64,000 nucleotides of DNA, from NCBI GenBank assembly GCA_903830725.1, contig CAIKVH010000070.1, forward strand, positions 1 to 64,000, written 5' to 3'. The position numbers were made by a program, and so were the translations under genes. Numbering within the stretch: position 1 is the first letter of the stretch; every line of letters starts with the position of its first letter. Shown in pieces: positions 53,516 to 60,961 of this stretch. The notes under the pieces are model-generated. The model searched no databases and was not told the origin of the DNA. It saw only the letters and a program-made list of their open reading frames with translations. The DNA is from an uncultured Burkholderiales bacterium (GTDB taxonomy: Bacteria; Pseudomonadota; Gammaproteobacteria; Burkholderiales; Burkholderiaceae_C).

Positions 53516-54280
53516 TCAAGCTCCTAGTGACATGGAGATGATACTGTTTACGAGTTGATTAAACATTGTTGGGTCTGCACCAGGAACAAACTCTGGAGTA
53601 ACGCTGTATGTCCCGTCAACACTAACGCAGGGGGTGTTCGTTACTTTTAGGGCTTTGCAAAGATCAATTAAATCTGTCAAATCCTCAGTTAATATGTTTT
53701 TGTTTTTTAATACTGTGGATGGCAAGCTTACGGATATATGACTTGAGGTGGCAATTTTTTGAATTACTCCCCAATTTTTACTACTCAACCCCTGTGTTTG
53801 ACAAGCTACAAAACTTGCCTGAACAAATTGTTTTAAATGCGTTGGAAAATATCTCCTAACGGCTAAATAGGAGAGAGCGTAAGCTGCACTGTCTTTGGTA
53901 TTCGGTAAAGCAGAGAGTTCGAACCTGAGCTCTTTGGGGAGAGTTTTAGATAAATTGACGAAAAAATCAAAGTAACTCGCAGAGTAAGGACAGTTTGGAC
54001 TGAAGAAAACACGAACCGTGTTTTCCTCCGAGGCAACTGTTGTCACTTGGAGATAGGGTCTTATTTGCTGATTTTGAGTGGTGAGCTGAGGTGGGGGTAC
54101 AGAGGTAACTCCAGAGGTGAGTTCGGTCGCAACTATGCTCTGAGATCGGGGCGGATATGCCTGTGCGCCAAAGATCTGTACCGTAGACCCTGAGGCGATT
54201 AATGTCAAAGCTTTTTGTAAAAGATTTCTTTTACTCTCGAAATTAGTAAATATATTTTGTTTAAGCATAATGCGTTTCAT
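53516..54280 (-). CDS. exported DsbA-like thioredoxin-fold protein with CPYS active site
   Basis: A 254-residue protein with a weak N-terminal hydrophobic stretch (about 21-40, cut near AQA-YPP). The thioredoxin fold is recognisable from VRVFFSPNCPYSASYFDFF, with C97 and S100, and from the cis-proline segment VTNTPCVSVDGTYSVTPEF. The second active-site cysteine of DsbA is replaced by serine, so it cannot cycle as a normal oxidase; it could act as an isomerase, trap mixed disulfides or chaperone. It overlaps the 3' end of the secretion ATPase gene by 20 bp, indicating coupled expression. The neighbouring cysteine-rich TraN-like proteins are its plausible clients (inference). Confidence 0.75.
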   Translation of the reverse strand: MKRIMLKQNIFTNFESKRNLLQKALTLIASGSTVQIFGAQAYPPRSQSIVATELTSGVTSVPPPQLTTQNQQIRPYLQVTTVASEENTVRVFFSPNCPYSASYFDFFVNLSKTLPKELRFELSALPNTKDSAAYALSYLAVRRYFPTHLKQFVQASFVACQTQGLSSKNWGVIQKIATSSHISVSLPSTVLKNKNILTEDLTDLIDLCKALKVTNTPCVSVDGTYSVTPEFVPGADPTMFNQLVNSIISMSLGA

Positions 54281-55913
54281 CTGTGGTGATAGGTAAATCT
54301 AAAACGCTCTGACTGGACCCCAACAAATTCAGATCTGATTTATTACTCGCAGCAATTAACATGGTCCCAAGCTCAATAGGTATCTGGTAACTATTGCCTT
54401 GAAGTGAGTTTAGATTTGTCAAAACGCCCTTGTTCCTAGCATCAAGTAAGCCAAGATCCTCTGAGGCTAGAGGAGGAGCTGAAAAGCTCGATGTTTGCTG
54501 TGCCCTAAGGTAGCAATCAATCACCTCAGCAATAGCTCTATAGCTTAAGTTATAAGAAACCGCTAACTGAGACCGCAGAGGCAGCGTGCTGGCGGATTGT
54601 TGAAGGGTATCAAGCCTAACCATGCAGTCTGATAGTTTAGACTCTCCACTCTCAACACCTCTAAAGGCGCACATGGCCAGTGATTCGTAATAAAGCCGAT
54701 CCTTTACCGACTGGTAAATATCATCGCTTGTAAAGTTGGGTGAGCGTATGATTTTCTTAATTAAGTGATCAACATCTATGGCCTCAATTAAGGCTGTAGC
54801 TCCAAGCTTTTCGGTTGACCCCGTTTCTTTGAAATGGGTAGGAATTTTGATCTTATTTGATATCAGCCAATCTATTTCAGTTTTGTTCAAGTCACGCGAA
54901 ACACGGTTAGCCTCGTATTTTCCGATAAGTCGCTGAGCAAGTACGAGCTTTAAAGTGTCGGAGACGCGAAATGAGTCCTTTGCCTTGTCAATCGTTAGCT
55001 CCAAGATTCTGCTGATGGTTTGAGCAGCGTTACTTGCATGTATCGTAGCCAGTACCAGGTGCCCTGTTTGTGCGGCTTGCAGTGCAATTTCCATAGTCTC
55101 AGAATCCCTAATTTCTCCAATTAAGATAACGTCAGGGTCGGATCTAAGGGCGCTTTTAAGGCCGGCTGCAAAGCTTACCTGTCCATGAGTTTGGATTTGA
55201 GTGACTGGACCATTGCCCTTAAGTCGAAATTCAACTGGGTCTTCAATTGTGAAGATGGAGCGAGTTCCATCATTTAATTCACATAGCATCGCGTGCAAAA
55301 GAGTGGTTTTTCCAGAGCCGGTTGGCCCTGAAACCAATATCAAACCAGAAGGTTCGTGGATTGATTTTTTAATTAGTTGCTCAAGGGCGAATGTAAATCC
55401 AAGCTCGCTGAGTCTTGGAGTTCGTTGCTGGTCTAATATACGACACACGATACTAAACCCACTAAAGGTCTTTTGAAACTGTACCCGCACATCTGTTTTA
55501 TAGGTCTCGTTGGGATCGCAAATGAGACCTTGGTCTTTCGCCCACCAAGCTGGAAAGTCTAAGCTAAAACGCGCTGAAATAATCTCGGCCTGTGTTCCCC
55601 CAGCAGTGTTATTGGTTAGTTGTAGCAATTTTGTCTGAAAATGCATAGGATCACAATGCTCATTTTTAAAAGCATGATTAACGAATCCATCCTTTGTTCT
55701 GATATTGATAAAAACAGCAAGCTTGGCGTTGAACGATTTTGCGTTGAAATGGATATCTGAACTCTTAGTTTGTACAGCGTAGGCTAGGGACCTCAAAATG
55801 GCGCATTCAACTTCATAGTGCTCGGGGTGTTGAGATATATACATGAGCGATCTTCTTTCATCCCCCGAGAGCTTGAATAATTCTGCATATTTCGGGAGTT
55901 GAAAATCATTCAC
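54261..55913 (-). CDS. GspE/PilB/TraJ-type secretion ATPase
   Basis: A 550-residue hexameric traffic ATPase of the type II/IV secretion and pilus family. The N2-like domain has SSDIHFNAKSFNAKL. The motor domain carries Walker A GPTGSGKTT (196-204), the Asp box FTIEDPVEF (221-229), Walker B DPDVILIGEIRD (259-270) and the His box GHLVLATIHASN (284-295). The tetracysteine zinc motif of GspE/PilB is missing from the C-terminal domain. The last 150 residues are unlike PilB or PilT. No inner-membrane platform protein, prepilin, prepilin peptidase or secretin is in the window. It is the first gene of a two-gene operon with the CPYS protein, divergent from the TraN-like genes. Confidence 0.85.
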   Translation of the reverse strand: MNDFQLPKYAELFKLSGDERRSLMYISQHPEHYEVECAILRSLAYAVQTKSSDIHFNAKSFNAKLAVFINIRTKDGFVNHAFKNEHCDPMHFQTKLLQLTNNTAGGTQAEIISARFSLDFPAWWAKDQGLICDPNETYKTDVRVQFQKTFSGFSIVCRILDQQRTPRLSELGFTFALEQLIKKSIHEPSGLILVSGPTGSGKTTLLHAMLCELNDGTRSIFTIEDPVEFRLKGNGPVTQIQTHGQVSFAAGLKSALRSDPDVILIGEIRDSETMEIALQAAQTGHLVLATIHASNAAQTISRILELTIDKAKDSFRVSDTLKLVLAQRLIGKYEANRVSRDLNKTEIDWLISNKIKIPTHFKETGSTEKLGATALIEAIDVDHLIKKIIRSPNFTSDDIYQSVKDRLYYESLAMCAFRGVESGESKLSDCMVRLDTLQQSASTLPLRSQLAVSYNLSYRAIAEVIDCYLRAQQTSSFSAPPLASEDLGLLDARNKGVLTNLNSLQGNSYQIPIELGTMLIAASNKSDLNLLGSSQSVLDLPITTDETHYA

Positions 55914-56195
55914 TATCTGTATTCTCTATTCTGATTAAGGTATCCCGCGAATATATGCTGTTAATAAGGCTGTATGCTCTGGTTTTCTAATCGTTCAAAT
56001 AAAACGCAAGCCGATTTGGTTCAATACCCACATAAGTCAAAGCCTTTAGAGCTAAATACTGAATTCGATCTCAATTGCTGAGTTTAAAAAATTATTGAAG
56101 CGTTAAGAGGTATGGTCTGGAATCCATTTACTGCTATGACGCAGTTTAACTACCATTTTTTACTGGGTTCCAATGCAAGATAGAGTTAAGTGTTT

Positions 56196-58415
56196 ATGAA
56201 TCAAAATAGTAAGTTAGTGCAATTTGTACTTTTCTGCTTGTTTCAGACGTTCTATCTAAATAATGCGTCTGCACAGAACGCTCCTGCGCTTTCACCCTTG
56301 GCTGAGGGGTTGGAGTTTGCCAACAATATTAAGCCTACAGTACCCACGCAGTTGGTGAACCCTAAGGCGGTTAATTTCTCCACTTGGTCAAGTGTGAATA
56401 GTTCAGTTACTTTGCCGTCCAAAATGGGGGAATTCTCAACCCCATCCCTCAGTTCATCAATTGCAAATAAGTCCTCACAAGGCGCTTTGCTCGCATTTGG
56501 TCTAAATGCACAACTTGAGTGTGCCAATTACAGGCCTACGGGCAACACAAACGCTGATCAATACTGCGCTGCAGTGAATTTTATGTCTGGTTCTTGTATA
56601 CAGCCCAGCGCACAACAGTTCGAAATAATAGGTTCTTCGAACTCTTTCATTAAAAGTAATCCTAAGCAAAACTGCATAGGCACGTTCGGTTCGGGTGAAA
56701 ATTCTTTTGATTTCTCCCAGGCGTTTAGTCCCTTACTAGGTAATTCAATAATGAATAATCCGACTCAAAATGCTCCTGATGCGACTAATAACCCGTATAC
56801 AAGTGTCTGCCCAGAGATTGTGGGCGATAGCTCGAAGGTAATACAGGCTATTAAGCCAATACCTAAATACACTACAAATACGTGCTGGGTATCTTCCAAA
56901 ACAGATTTACAAAATTGCTCTCAAACGCTCAACGTTACTGTAGTTCAAAATTGGACTTCTCCCCTAGAATCAAGTGTATGTGCTAGTGGAGATTTGGTAG
57001 GTACTAATTGCGTAGTTGAAGTTAAAAATACGCCATCACAAGCCCTAGCTTGTCCAACTGGATTTACTCTGAGCCAGGATCAATGTTTGCAAACTATAGT
57101 TATCCCAGCAAACGCTAGTATTACATGCCCCCAAGGTGGCCAGTGGAGTAGCAGCGAACATCAATGCATCCAAATTGTTGCAACTATCATTCCCGCAACA
57201 CAGGCGATGAATGATTGCCCAGTGGGGACGCTCTTTGTATCAAACAATTGCGTACAAACGTTATCCTCCCCCGCAATTGGCGGGGCCCTTAGCTGTCCCT
57301 CCACGCAATCCCTGATCGGCTCTGTTTGTACAACTACCAACACCGTAACGAGTGTTGCAATTAAACAATTAAATTGCCCCGCTAACTCTCTATTAAATGG
57401 TACCCAGTGCACTCAAACAGTAACTAACCCAGCTACCCCGACCTATTATTGTCCCTCTGGAGGAGTTTTGAATTTACAAATATGCAGCACACAAAATATG
57501 ACCCCTAAAATCCAGCAACTAAGCTGTAACGGATTGGGTACCTTAACTAGCTATCAGCCGCCAGGAATGCCCTATCAATGCTATAAAGTACAGTCTGATC
57601 TTTCGTGCGGATTTATTGCATTTATTTACGGATTGACGAATGTAAATACAGAGACTTCAACGGGTAAGTCAGTATGTGTGGTGGGACCCATATGGATTCT
57701 GGGATGTCCTACTAATTCTGTAGTAACAGCTGGTGTTTGCTTACAAACTGTTCAAAGCGTTGCAAGCATTGGTAGCTATACATGCTCAGCCGGCACCCTC
57801 TCTAACGCCAATTGCTTACTTACAACTACAAGTTCTCCGCAAATCACCTATAGCTGCCCATCCCTAAATCCCCTTGATATTGCAAGCGGGAGTACTTCAA
57901 TTTTGATTGCTCAATCAGGTCAGTTCAATTGTATATCTACAATTACAACGACCGTTGCAGCTACTCCTTCCTACACTTGTGCAATTGGCTACACATTAAA
58001 TGTCGACGTCTGTCAGATCGTCGTCAGCAAGCCTGCCTCTGTTACGTACAGTTGTGCAAGTTCTGGGACTTTGCAGGGACAAAGCTGTGTGGGTCAAACC
58101 AATACCATCACTCAAGCCTTAACAACATATCAATGCTCAGACTCACAAGTCCTGGTCGGAACATCTTGCTCTACAACCTCATCCATACCTGCAAATATAA
58201 AGCTAAGTTGTCCGTCCGGATCCAGCCTATCTGAATCCAATGGGCTTGCTAGTAGTTGCGTAAGTTTATTACAAGTTCCAGTTCAAATTTTTCAATACTG
58301 TACAGATGCATCAATTCCCCAGTCTAAAGGTTGTGTTCAGTATTCAGTTAATTCAGTTTGGAATGATGCTTGTTTGCCGTTGGAGAAAAATTCAGGAGTG
58401 ACGCTTCTACTCTAG
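56196..58415 (+). CDS. large cysteine-rich exported protein with two-Cys repeats, TraN-like
   Basis: A 739-residue exported protein from ATG at 56196. The signal peptide (about 1-27) is cut near NASAQN. The first 250 residues form a Ser/Asn-rich domain containing GALLAFGLNAQLECAN. From about residue 260 to the end there are some sixteen units of 23-40 residues, each with two cysteines in the pattern CPxGxxLxxxxCxxTxxxPAxxxYx, for example CPTGFTLSQDQCLQT and CAIGYTLNVDVCQIV. Such units occur in the middle of some TraN-type mating-pair proteins (recalled, not searched). Disulfide pairing within each unit is likely, giving a stiff surface rod. It precedes a second TraN-like gene by 32 bp. Confidence 0.75.
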   Translation: MNQNSKLVQFVLFCLFQTFYLNNASAQNAPALSPLAEGLEFANNIKPTVPTQLVNPKAVNFSTWSSVNSSVTLPSKMGEFSTPSLSSSIANKSSQGALLAFGLNAQLECANYRPTGNTNADQYCAAVNFMSGSCIQPSAQQFEIIGSSNSFIKSNPKQNCIGTFGSGENSFDFSQAFSPLLGNSIMNNPTQNAPDATNNPYTSVCPEIVGDSSKVIQAIKPIPKYTTNTCWVSSKTDLQNCSQTLNVTVVQNWTSPLESSVCASGDLVGTNCVVEVKNTPSQALACPTGFTLSQDQCLQTIVIPANASITCPQGGQWSSSEHQCIQIVATIIPATQAMNDCPVGTLFVSNNCVQTLSSPAIGGALSCPSTQSLIGSVCTTTNTVTSVAIKQLNCPANSLLNGTQCTQTVTNPATPTYYCPSGGVLNLQICSTQNMTPKIQQLSCNGLGTLTSYQPPGMPYQCYKVQSDLSCGFIAFIYGLTNVNTETSTGKSVCVVGPIWILGCPTNSVVTAGVCLQTVQSVASIGSYTCSAGTLSNANCLLTTTSSPQITYSCPSLNPLDIASGSTSILIAQSGQFNCISTITTTVAATPSYTCAIGYTLNVDVCQIVVSKPASVTYSCASSGTLQGQSCVGQTNTITQALTTYQCSDSQVLVGTSCSTTSSIPANIKLSCPSGSSLSESNGLASSCVSLLQVPVQIFQYCTDASIPQSKGCVQYSVNSVWNDACLPLEKNSGVTLLL

Positions 58416-58447
58416 TCTAAATAATCGATTTTACAAATATTTACTCA

Positions 58448-60154
58448 ATGCATTCATTCAATTTAAGGCGATTTAGAGTTGGTATTACCGTAGTTTTTGT
58501 GTGCCTAGCTCCTTTTTTAATAAATACATTTACAAAAGTAGCACAAGCTTCAACATATATCCAAGGCGCTTGCAGTCCTATACCTGAGTCTAAAAAATGC
58601 ATTGATGCAACTCCCTGCAAGTTAGATACCTCTGGAGTACTTGTTTGTTTGGCTGGAGTTTCGCTATTAAATGAGGGGAAACCTTCTAGTTCGAATCCGC
58701 TTGGCTCACTTAGCGTTACAAAGGCATGTTGGCAATATAGCTTTGATTTTGCTTGTTCATCAGTATTAGGTTCTATTGAGCCAACCGGTTCGCTTGGAGG
58801 TTCAAGTTTAGTCCAATCCTCTGCTGGACTTATTCAGTCCCCTAATTTATTGGCTACTCCCGTACACAATGGATGCGCTTATGAGCAGTCTAATAACTTT
58901 TGTAGCTTAGTTAACAGCTTTTGCAGTAGCCAATTTCTTAGCGAGACTGGACAAACCCAGTGCGCTCAGTATCAACAAACTTACTCGTGTTTGGATCAGA
59001 CCACTACTTCGAATCTGGTTGCAACAGACTCACAGCCAGCGGTTTGCAGGACACCTCTTTTGCAAAGTGGTGCTTTGAGTTTAGGTGTCGGTAGCTTAGG
59101 ATACTCGCCGCTCGTTGCTCCTGTACCAAGTCCGAATTCATTTGCTCAAACTGCTATAGCGATGGAGATAGCAAATGAGATTCAGACTTACTCTGGCTGT
59201 GCTATGTCAGGTCAACAAGGATGTGTTGCCAAATCACTTTTTGGTGGCGTACGTGAGAGTTGTACAAAAGGTTGGTTAGGCCTGAAAAATTGTTGCACTT
59301 CTCAACCAGGAGCTAAGAGCAACTCGGCAATGCTAGGTTTGGTATTAGGCCCTATGGCCAGCACAGTCAAATACGCTGGCGAAAAGGCTGTCGATTTAGC
59401 CTCGCCTTACGTCTTTGATGCGATGTATTCAAATGGGGCTTATACCCAGGGTATGACTTCTGCAATCACACAAAGCGCAAACGTCCTAACAGATTCAGAG
59501 GGATTTGCTCAAACAACTATATTTGCTTCTGGTGGCGTGAATTTGAGCGCTTTTGGAATCAATATCGGAATGGGTGCCGCCCCTCTTGGTGGAGGATTAT
59601 TTGGGGCAACAACAGAGTTCAGCGCCTTGTCTTCAGCGTCACAGGGATATTATGTAAATTTTAATCCATATGTTTTTGCGGCCAATATGGCAGTGACTGT
59701 TATCGAGGAAATGGGGCAGTGTTCTGCAGATGAAGTTGTGTTGGCAATGCACCGCGGTCAAGATCTCTCGGTATACGTAAGTGAGGCGTGTATTGAGGAA
59801 GTGCCAATTACAAATACGTGCATAGCCTACCGCGATAATTACTGCTCTTTTAACGGCGTGTTGGGGAAAATAATTAACCAACAGGGTAAAGCTCAATTAG
59901 GTGATGATTTTTCTAGTTGCTCGGGTCTAAGCACAGAGCAAATTGCTAGTATTGACTTTACGAAAATCAATTTTTCCGAATTTACAGGTTTGCTGATGCA
60001 ACAGGCTACGACCAATTTACCTCAAAATATAGGGGCAAATTATCTTCCATTAGAGTCAAGTCGCAAGCAAGGATCTCAACAAAAGGTCGGTAACGGAACG
60101 GGATATCCGCTACTACCTCCGTCATCTCCCCAAACTACACCAAGTAGCCATTAA
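58448..60154 (+). CDS. TraN-family conjugal transfer/mating-pair-stabilisation-like protein
   Basis: A 568-residue exported protein with a signal peptide (about 1-36, cut near AQAS) and over 25 cysteines. Two segments are characteristic of TraN: VRESCTKGWLGLKNCC in the middle, and near the C-terminus CIAYRDNYCSFNGVLGKIIN followed by QQGKAQLGDDFSSCSGLSTEQ and IDFTKINFSEF (compare YCCF.SKLARII.EQGR.QLG...C.G..PE....IDFSKIDFSE). In F-type conjugation TraN sits in the outer membrane and contacts the recipient. Here no other tra gene is present. A Gly/Ala-rich hydrophobic stretch (about 290-400) might contact membrane. It follows the repeat protein in one operon. Confidence 0.8.
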   Translation: MHSFNLRRFRVGITVVFVCLAPFLINTFTKVAQASTYIQGACSPIPESKKCIDATPCKLDTSGVLVCLAGVSLLNEGKPSSSNPLGSLSVTKACWQYSFDFACSSVLGSIEPTGSLGGSSLVQSSAGLIQSPNLLATPVHNGCAYEQSNNFCSLVNSFCSSQFLSETGQTQCAQYQQTYSCLDQTTTSNLVATDSQPAVCRTPLLQSGALSLGVGSLGYSPLVAPVPSPNSFAQTAIAMEIANEIQTYSGCAMSGQQGCVAKSLFGGVRESCTKGWLGLKNCCTSQPGAKSNSAMLGLVLGPMASTVKYAGEKAVDLASPYVFDAMYSNGAYTQGMTSAITQSANVLTDSEGFAQTTIFASGGVNLSAFGINIGMGAAPLGGGLFGATTEFSALSSASQGYYVNFNPYVFAANMAVTVIEEMGQCSADEVVLAMHRGQDLSVYVSEACIEEVPITNTCIAYRDNYCSFNGVLGKIINQQGKAQLGDDFSSCSGLSTEQIASIDFTKINFSEFTGLLMQQATTNLPQNIGANYLPLESSRKQGSQQKVGNGTGYPLLPPSSPQTTPSSH

Positions 60155-60224
60155 CATTACCTAGCAATGTTCATTTGAGCTAGAAATCAATTTCGGTCCC
60201 TTTACTTTAAATGAGATTTTTACT

Positions 60225-60578
60225 TTGATACAGAATTCAAAAACAGCAATTTATTCTAATTTTTCATTATTCTTTAGAAAACGTAAGCTAGCCAATCTAA
60301 CTTCTATTTTATTTTTTCTTCTTTGCTTATTCCTAGGATGGAATGCGTTTCATCTATCCCAGCAACTAGAAATAATGAAAGGAAGGGGTTTATTGGATAG
60401 TTTAAAGATATCCGACCTTTCAAGCCAACTTGAATTGGCTCAAATAGAATTGGTTAAAATCCGCAAAGACACCGATGTAGCAATCGAAAACTCCAGACTC
60501 GAAGATGAGATCAAAATCAAGTCCTTCGCCTATCAAGCTTTGATTTGCGAGCAGGTCAGAAAGAAGCTAAAGTTATAA
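60225..60578 (+). CDS. small single-pass membrane protein with coiled coil
   Basis: A 117-residue protein starting at TTG 60225, since the nearest ATG (60212) is closed by a stop. It has a basic N-terminus (FFRKRKLANL), one membrane segment at about 24-44 (LTSILFFLLCLFLGWNAFHL) and then a helical Leu/Glu/Lys heptad-like region to the end. No family was recognised. It lies 70 bp after the TraN-like gene on the same strand and may be an inner-membrane assembly factor of that module. The unusual start lowers confidence. Confidence 0.5.
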   Translation: MIQNSKTAIYSNFSLFFRKRKLANLTSILFFLLCLFLGWNAFHLSQQLEIMKGRGLLDSLKISDLSSQLELAQIELVKIRKDTDVAIENSRLEDEIKIKSFAYQALICEQVRKKLKL

Positions 60579-60625: not shown

Positions 60626-60961
60626 TCAGCGCTGGCACTTGTAGAGTGCAAAGACGCGACGCCCGTATTCTGTCATATCCTCTTTGACAACCGTATCTGC
60701 TCCACTATCTACTGCGCTGTTTCGGGCCATTTGTAGTAAGTTGGCTTCCACGTCATCGGCGCTTCTGGTGTAAAAACCAAATTCTGCCATTACGCTAACT
60801 GTAACTTTACCCATTGACTTACAAGAACTTACGTTATTGGAGTTTTGAAGGTTTACATTTACAGAGCCAGGGCGTACTTCGATCATGCGTGAGGCGCATC
60901 CAACGAGATGACTGCAAAGAAGTCCTACTGTAATGTAGAGTATGGTCTTGTAACGTTTCAT
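60626..60961 (-). CDS. DUF4156-like outer membrane lipoprotein
   Basis: A 111-residue lipoprotein with a signal ending in lipobox LVGC (C22). The mature part has SCKSMGKVTV, a central EANLLQMARNSAVDSGADTVV segment resembling DUF4156 (YjeI-type) proteins, and a terminal YKC. C48 and the last Cys could form a disulfide. The function is unknown. It converges with the small coiled-coil gene. Confidence 0.72.
   Translation of the reverse strand: MKRYKTILYITVGLLCSHLVGCASRMIEVRPGSVNVNLQNSNNVSSCKSMGKVTVSVMAEFGFYTRSADDVEANLLQMARNSAVDSGADTVVKEDMTEYGRRVFALYKCQR

Follow-up and report, generated by a model that had tools for sequence, protein, structure and literature searches.

Conjugation machines are nearly always the property of mobile elements, and the closest described relatives of the system presented here are found on MPF_F/MOBF plasmids of Burkholderiales (pBMUL01 and its relatives), which encode the same proteins in the same block order, including a divergent module with genes for a DsbA-like protein and an ATPase on one side and for the cysteine-rich proteins CysR and TraN on the other. 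F is tabulated without VirB11 (PMC12624023), and retraction of the F pilus is thought to be energy independent (PMC7555446). A module of the same kind lies in the genome of an uncultured Burkholderiales bacterium, on a contig of which the first 64,000 nucleotides (the window) were analyzed here. On the pBMUL01-type plasmids, the type IV secretion system (T4SS) is contiguous and accompanied by a sel1-type gene, hyp183, and mobF, whereas in the genome of the window (G000; 3.05 Mb in 144 contigs) it is chromosomal and split into three pieces, and those genes were not detected.

The module and the F-type T4SS of its genome

A preliminary description of the window, made from its sequence alone, had proposed two divergent operons with five open reading frames (ORFs), and the ORF list bears out all five and their span of 53516 to 60578 (Table 1). 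It had also remarked that tra genes are not nearby, which holds: when 46 reference proteins (38 from conjugative plasmids and 8 from the window) were compared by tblastn, the only matches in the window and the 16 kb that follow were to the module genes and to sequences taken from the window itself. No further tra gene was detected, and hyp183, the relaxase/TraD block, and the sel1-type gene, all part of the plasmid order, gave no match there either. In a search of the whole genome, TraG, TraH, TraU, and TraB gave a single match each, the first two on contig C122 and the others on contig C133. By gene content, a near-complete F-type T4SS is encoded on these two other contigs, and the proposal of a compact system working alone fails on this point.

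Mapped by similarity to pBMUL01, C133 carries genes for DUF5658, DsbC, Slt, TraW, TraU, TrbC, a small protein, TraL, TraE, TraK, and TraB (piece A), and C122 carries genes for TraV, a TraA-like protein, TraC, a small protein, LepB, TraF, TraH, and TraG (piece B). The label of the small protein of piece B by the trbI position is our own, and the TraA-like protein is so called because it is 35% identical to the product of the gene that separates traV from traC in pBMUL01, a place annotated as traA in pHN39-SIM. The MPF_F parts were all found in G000, by family search or by similarity to pBMUL01, and comprise a TraC-type ATPase, TraB, -K, -V, -E, -L, -G, -H, -U, and -W, TrbC, and TraF and -N. The weakest of these calls is TraL (27% identity to pBMUL01; E value of 1e-10), and the TraC-F-type (6.3e-121) and TraW (1.1e-29) matches both fall under the cut-offs of their own models. 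The single cluster expected of MPF_F systems is not found; the genes lie on three contigs with chromosomal flanks. Piece A occupies 32.6 to 40.4 kb of a 57.0-kb contig, piece B occupies 35.0 to 45.4 kb of a 46.4-kb contig, and the module, piece C, occupies 53.5 to 60.6 kb of a 161.9-kb contig. The pieces therefore lie apart, since C is >50 kb and A >16 kb from the contig ends; B ends 1 kb before the end of its contig.

Plasmid searches with four proteins each led to one small group of plasmids. In pBMUL01, pieces A and B and the module are contiguous, with mobF further on, past other genes, and a Herbaspirillum plasmid stretch has the order traF-H-G, module, mobF, and a TraD-like gene. Because pBMUL01 holds the blocks contiguously, pieces A, B, and C correspond to one plasmid-type order cut at block boundaries, and, on this comparison of gene orders, the module is piece C of that order. 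Eight plasmid or named-contig stretches carry the module (L041, L042, L043, L124, L126, L129, L130, and L132). It is next to mobF in 8/8 stretches; a TraD-like gene is present in 7/8, the pBMUL01 stretch ending in mobF, and traG lies inside the stretch in five (L041, L043, L126, L130, and L132). A scan of named genomes found 23 loci, 21 of which were mapped, the other two being those of the sister genomes G019 and G110. The whole arrangement with MobF and TraD was seen at 5 of the 21 (two of Caballeronia and one each of Pandoraea, Herbaspirillum, and Burkholderia), the ATPases of L130 and L132 being nearly identical. Two further mapped loci are those of G105 and G107, three are short contigs, including that of G050, and at the other 11, which have a more distant TraN, the module ATPase was not seen within the stretch. 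The Pseudomonas plasmid pHN39-SIM also has genes for a GspE/PulE-type ATPase and DsbA beside traG.

Among the 84 genomes of the genus, TraH was found in 8 and the window type of TraN in 7, all of them within the 8 (hypergeometric P value of 1.8e-9, with kinship ignored); the TraH genome without TraN is G012, which is 68% complete. The module stands alone in its own neighborhood, as would suit a self-sufficient exporter and folder of surface adhesins, which was the proposal of the preliminary description. On plasmids, however, the module adjoins tra and mob genes, and the co-occurrence of TraN with TraH in 7/7 genomes led us to reject a stand-alone adhesin exporter, which is hardly credible. 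Judged from the sequences, the module is intact and conserved and forms one part of an F-type T4SS whose genes are dispersed. It is probably the third piece of such a system on the chromosome, and the machine would be kept by the cell for contact with other cells or for transfer to or from them.

Proteins of the module

The ATPase belongs to the T2SSE family (PF00437; E value of 7.2e-65), in agreement with the secretion ATPase of the preliminary description, and has the GspE/PilB motor fold with a Walker A motif and an ILIGEIRD box. The tetra-cysteine zinc motif of GspE and PilB is defined by CxxC pairs. CxxC is missing in 8/8 ATPase sequences; the zinc site is described for EpsE (PMC5061722). 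The module ATPase also stays under the NCBIfam equivalog cut-offs for GspE (212.6 versus 630.25 bits), PilB (204.7 versus 675.65 bits), and VirB11. In a phylogenetic tree for which 8 of the 13 outgroup loci passed the length filter and 5 were dropped, the T4SS-linked ATPases stood apart from the others with support of 100/98. The module ATPase may act where other T4SSs use VirB11, in the extension or retraction of a pilus that would be made of the TraA-like protein and powered by TraC. Novelty is not claimed for the link between such an ATPase and an F-type T4SS, because a table for ICEAfe1 that lists pilB in the VirB11 row, together with dsbA and dsbG, is prior art (PMC6370655).

The gene of the 254-amino-acid thioredoxin-like protein overlaps that of the ATPase by 20 bases. 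An exported thioredoxin-fold protein with a CPYS site had been proposed, which we judge to be right, the DSBA match lying below the family cut-off (Table 1). C97 and T216-P217 are invariant in 10 sequences. The CxxC active site of the DsbA oxidase is missing from the window protein, whose CPYS is a C-x-x-S monothiol site, and CxxS occurs in 12 of 13 distinct family sequences, the exception being that of pHN39-SIM, with CPVC. A C-x-x-S site is able to keep a substrate bound as a mixed disulfide but not to resolve that bond alone. Together with DsbC, the protein may fold the cysteine-rich TraN and CysR, which would form the outer-membrane contact.

The preliminary description saw two TraN-like proteins on the other strand, which holds in full for the second. 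Its TraN domain scores 69.3 bits against a Pfam cut-off of 23; the protein is rich in cysteine, has a signal-like N terminus, judged by eye only, and matches NF009018 at 9.6e-93, under the cut-off of that model. A sequence search of the PDB with the TraN profile gave no matches at 0.01. A TraN search of 101 relatives found matches in 6, two of which are partial matches in distant genomes of other families. CysR, with 43 cysteines, had no family match of note in the family scans, and its description as a TraN proper was reworded accordingly. Its overlapping alignments fall in residues 169 to 765 of a 1,058-amino-acid Sphingopyxis TraN (best E value of 1.4e-36), in which PF06986 covers residues 761 to 1005, and by these alignments CysR is similar to the repeat arm found in a longer TraN. 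An in-frame ATG lies two codons downstream of its GTG start. The AlphaFold model of CysR was too poor for use (mean pLDDT of 44.1; pTM of 0.23). The small protein is 34% identical to its counterparts in G019 (1e-10) and G110 (6e-4), and PHROGs gave no match for it.

Table 1. Module features in the window and related sites and genes elsewhere
Feature	Position	Strand	Remarks
DsbA-like, probably exported thioredoxin-fold protein, CPYS	53516..54280	-	254-aa ORF; DSBA 1.4e-4, below cut-off
PilB/PilT-superfamily ATPase of F-type T4SS, no CxxC zinc motif	54261..55913	-	550 aa; GTG start
Divergent intergenic region	55914..56189	.	Between GTG starts at 55913 (-) and 56190 (+)
Possible shared regulatory site	56029..56041	+	Differs at two positions from the site preceding the TraB-DsbC locus; weak on its own
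CysR, exported Cys-repeat protein, like a detached arm of TraN	56190..58415	+	741 aa; GTG start
TraN, mating-pair stabilization protein	58448..60154	+	568 aa; PF06986 5e-19; 23 Cys
Small protein with a single membrane helix and a coiled coil (judged by eye)	60225..60578	+	117 aa; after TraN in relatives
13-base site	window 56029-56041; L081 18484; L045 13511; L083 19788; L084 8022		
MOB_C-type pair (coupling protein and MobC)	L146 8872-11185 (G110:C71); L147 6974-9663 (G107:C18)		One RND-operon site

Sister genomes, selection, and upstream sites

The relatives of G000 named here are metagenome-assembled Burkholderiales bins, presumably from lakes, to judge from the isolate names. G000, G019, G110, and G012 have piece A, piece B, or both of a common type (lineage I). 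With flanking neighbors named by eye, piece A lies between phasin and bactofilin genes in the three genomes in which it was read (G000, G012, and G019), piece B lies behind rpoD-dnaG-ggt-patatin in G000 and G012, and piece C is flanked by Mem_trans/msrA and DUF4156 in G000 and G019, the four larger proteins being 45 to 77% identical at this common site. The DUF4156 gene (60626 to 60961) adjoins the module in G000 and G019 and not in G110 and appears to be a marker of the site rather than part of the module. Lineage I forms one clade in the TraH tree (four genomes; 100/100) and in the TraU tree (three genomes; 92/98). Metagenome binning error is unlikely, because the chromosomal genes that flank the pieces on their contigs are found again in other bins. 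The T4SS is likely inherited on the chromosome, which suggests that the cell has made the transfer apparatus of a DNA parasite its own.

G050, G105, and G107 (lineage II) have a different break pattern, with one block of TraE-K-B-V-A-C-CysR-hyp183-TraN and a second in which TraL to DsbC diverges from a stretch ending in TraG (G050 and G105; in G107, the TraG side alone was read). In G050, a separate contig carries the ATPase-DsbA pair and a sel1-type gene. Such a combination, with a pair of the lineage-II type, is also present in G012:C32 (L050 880 to 3102), some 31 kb away from piece A, which that contig also carries. Second F-type sets occur in G019 (L087, G019:C77; L065, G019:C33; L088, G019:C3) and G105 (L114, G105:C76) and are close to each other (TraH pair, 100/100). 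The MobF and TraD genes of G019 sit on a small contig, and these second sets are perhaps a mobile element. In a two-contig genome, G047:C2 (L046 and L047; 159.5 kb), presumably a plasmid, carries a contiguous F-type tra region with the module, MobF, and TraD.

The dN/dS (omega) comparison called for in the preliminary description was informative in the related pair G105 and G050, in which omega ranges from 0.033 to 0.265 in 9/9 genes, indicating purifying selection; no sound omega was obtained for the window genes because synonymous sites are saturated between G000 and G019. Between these two genomes, the 11 T4SS genes show second-position differences of 0.10 to 0.36 and third-position differences of 0.53 to 0.66, versus 0.06 to 0.13 and 0.51 to 0.61 for four flanking genes. 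The small protein is the least conserved (0.36 versus 0.55), and it (34% identity), CysR (45%), and TraN (57%) are the most diverged of the 11 genes.

A decaying remnant of an integrated conjugative plasmid would fit the lack of matches to the sel1-type gene, hyp183, and the relaxase/TraD block around the module. The remaining frames are intact, however, their sister-genome relatives are 34 to 77% identical, far beyond chance, with piece C at the same site in a sister species, and the related lineage is under purifying selection. Decay was thus judged very improbable, in line with the argument against it in the preliminary description, and its alternative of a leftover of an F-like conjugative element stands for the F-like origin and not for any decay. 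The same description had also envisaged homologs always embedded in full tra clusters, with the present copy as a one-off fragment under relaxed selection; the proximity to mobF in all eight plasmid or named-contig stretches agrees with the former, but the copy is not a one-off, and no relaxed selection was seen.

A 13-base site lies upstream of piece A in G000 and G012 and, with one mismatch, in G019. Upstream of piece C, the G019 site has one mismatch to the piece-A form (5/3,000 shuffles were as good) and the G000 site has two (40/3,000). The site was not found at piece B or at piece C of G110, and one motif common to all three pieces was therefore rejected. The pattern, with one N and at most one mismatch, gave 10 matches in 1,113,454 bases of 63 stretches, 5 of them upstream of T4SS loci and 5 elsewhere, including two in the window, and it was derived from the same sites at which it was counted. 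Shared regulation of pieces A and C through this site is suggestive only.

Relaxases, coupling proteins, and known systems

In five genomes searched for MOBF (PF08751), with a positive Escherichia coli control, it was present in G019 and G047 and gave no match in G000, G050, or G012. A search for the coupling-protein family PF10412 covered 8 of the 84 genus genomes, all with TraH; it was present in G019 and G047 and gave no match in G000 at 1e-3 or in G050, G012, or G105. Weak matches in G110 and G107 proved to be divergent VirD4-like coupling proteins, each followed by a MobC-type gene, and the statement that the lineage has no coupling protein was dropped. The two genes of the pair are 73% and 63% identical between G110 and G107, and the neighboring RND protein is 89% identical. 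Small plasmids carry the same pair, with a MobC family replication-relaxation protein (mobC) beside the coupling-protein gene, and the name MobC rests on these relatives, which are 24 to 30% identical; Pfam Replic_Relax matches at 8.8e-4 in G110 and not in G107. PHROGs gave no match for the two MobC-like proteins and a weak terminase match (1.3e-6) for the coupling protein.

Several observations weigh against a chromosomal system kept by the cell. Between G000 and G019, dS is infinite for 10 of the 11 T4SS genes (dS of 3.1 and omega of 0.20 for the small protein). G110 has piece C at another site, and in G012, pieces A and B occur together with an ATPase that belongs to the other lineage, no TraN being found in this incomplete genome. 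Lineage II is not one TraH clade, G107 grouping with the second sets of G105 and G019. The G110 coupling protein scored only 1e-4, so that a divergent one is possible in G000, and metagenome bins may lose plasmids, which makes the missing relaxase weak evidence.

The coupling-protein/MobC pairs of G110 and G107, at one RND-operon site, would fit a DNA exchange owned by the cell, in which the dispersed F-type pilus and the chromosomal MOB_C pair move cellular DNA between cells, as would their plasmid homologs and the MOBC1 mobilizable plasmid CloDF13, which has a coupling protein of its own, MobB (PMC7431656). The pair was not found in G000, however, either by PF10412 or in 369,386 further bases covering part of the genome, and its linkage to the T4SS is conjectural, all genomes searched with PF10412 carrying TraH; we regard this exchange as possible but doubtful. 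The lack of detected MOBF and TraD-type coupling proteins in G000, G050, and G012 and the divergence of CysR, TraN, and the small protein, which would suit proteins of surface contact, favor instead a contact pilus that retracts and serves attachment or aggregation by means of a TraN/CysR adhesin, with nothing transferred. The channel parts TraC, TraG, TraH, and TraB are all kept, however, and two sisters have coupling proteins, and such a pilus seems rather unlikely. As to the cargo of the dispersed F-type T4SS, our first guess, a tentative one, is DNA on which MOB_C-type proteins, separately encoded, would act; our second, to which we incline less, is that there is none and the machine serves adhesion only; and a protein cargo, our third, is distinctly unlikely. 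It is a long shot that the whole F-type apparatus is a vertically inherited chromosomal organ of three or four partly coregulated loci, exchanging cellular DNA with its own PilB/PilT-type motor, as the bacterial counterpart of archaeal Ced.

No dispersed chromosomal F-type system of this kind was found in the literature searched, to which the claim is limited. The T4SS of Rickettsia is of the VirB type. It is dispersed, and it and the T4SS of Patescibacteria, which is mostly without a relaxase, are likewise owned by the cell; the latter is mostly related to MPF_FATA, and in the portion of the source consulted, neither is given as F-type with TraN (PMC12102498). CloDF13 resembles the G110/G107 pair in having its own coupling-protein gene in a mobilization region, but it is a small plasmid (PMC7431656), whereas the pair is chromosomal and was not found in the searched part of G000. 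The gonococcal genetic island (GGI) and GGI-like T4SSs are likewise F-type and mostly chromosomal (PMC4207684). They occupy one region with a similar gene order, most with TraI and TraD (PMC4207684), whereas the G000 system is parted, has no detected MOBF or TraD-type protein, and has an extra ATPase and a DsbA-like protein. ICEAfe1 of Acidithiobacillus ferrooxidans has an F-type T4SS with pilB, dsbA/dsbG, and a 1,019-amino-acid TraN, and, unlike the G000 system, it is an integrative conjugative element with a relaxase and TraD (PMC6370655). The dispersed system of G000 and its sisters offers a natural setting for asking about the role of a PilB/PilT-like motor in an F-type pilus. The archaeal Ced and Ted systems are likewise chromosomal conjugation-type machines without a recognizable bacterial relaxase, but they consist of archaeal proteins, and Ced imports DNA; domestication for DNA transfer was unreported in other organisms to the knowledge of the authors of that work, in the part consulted (PMC9905601). 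The retention of a dispersed F-type set on the chromosome by sister species makes it possible to test for such a domestication in bacteria.

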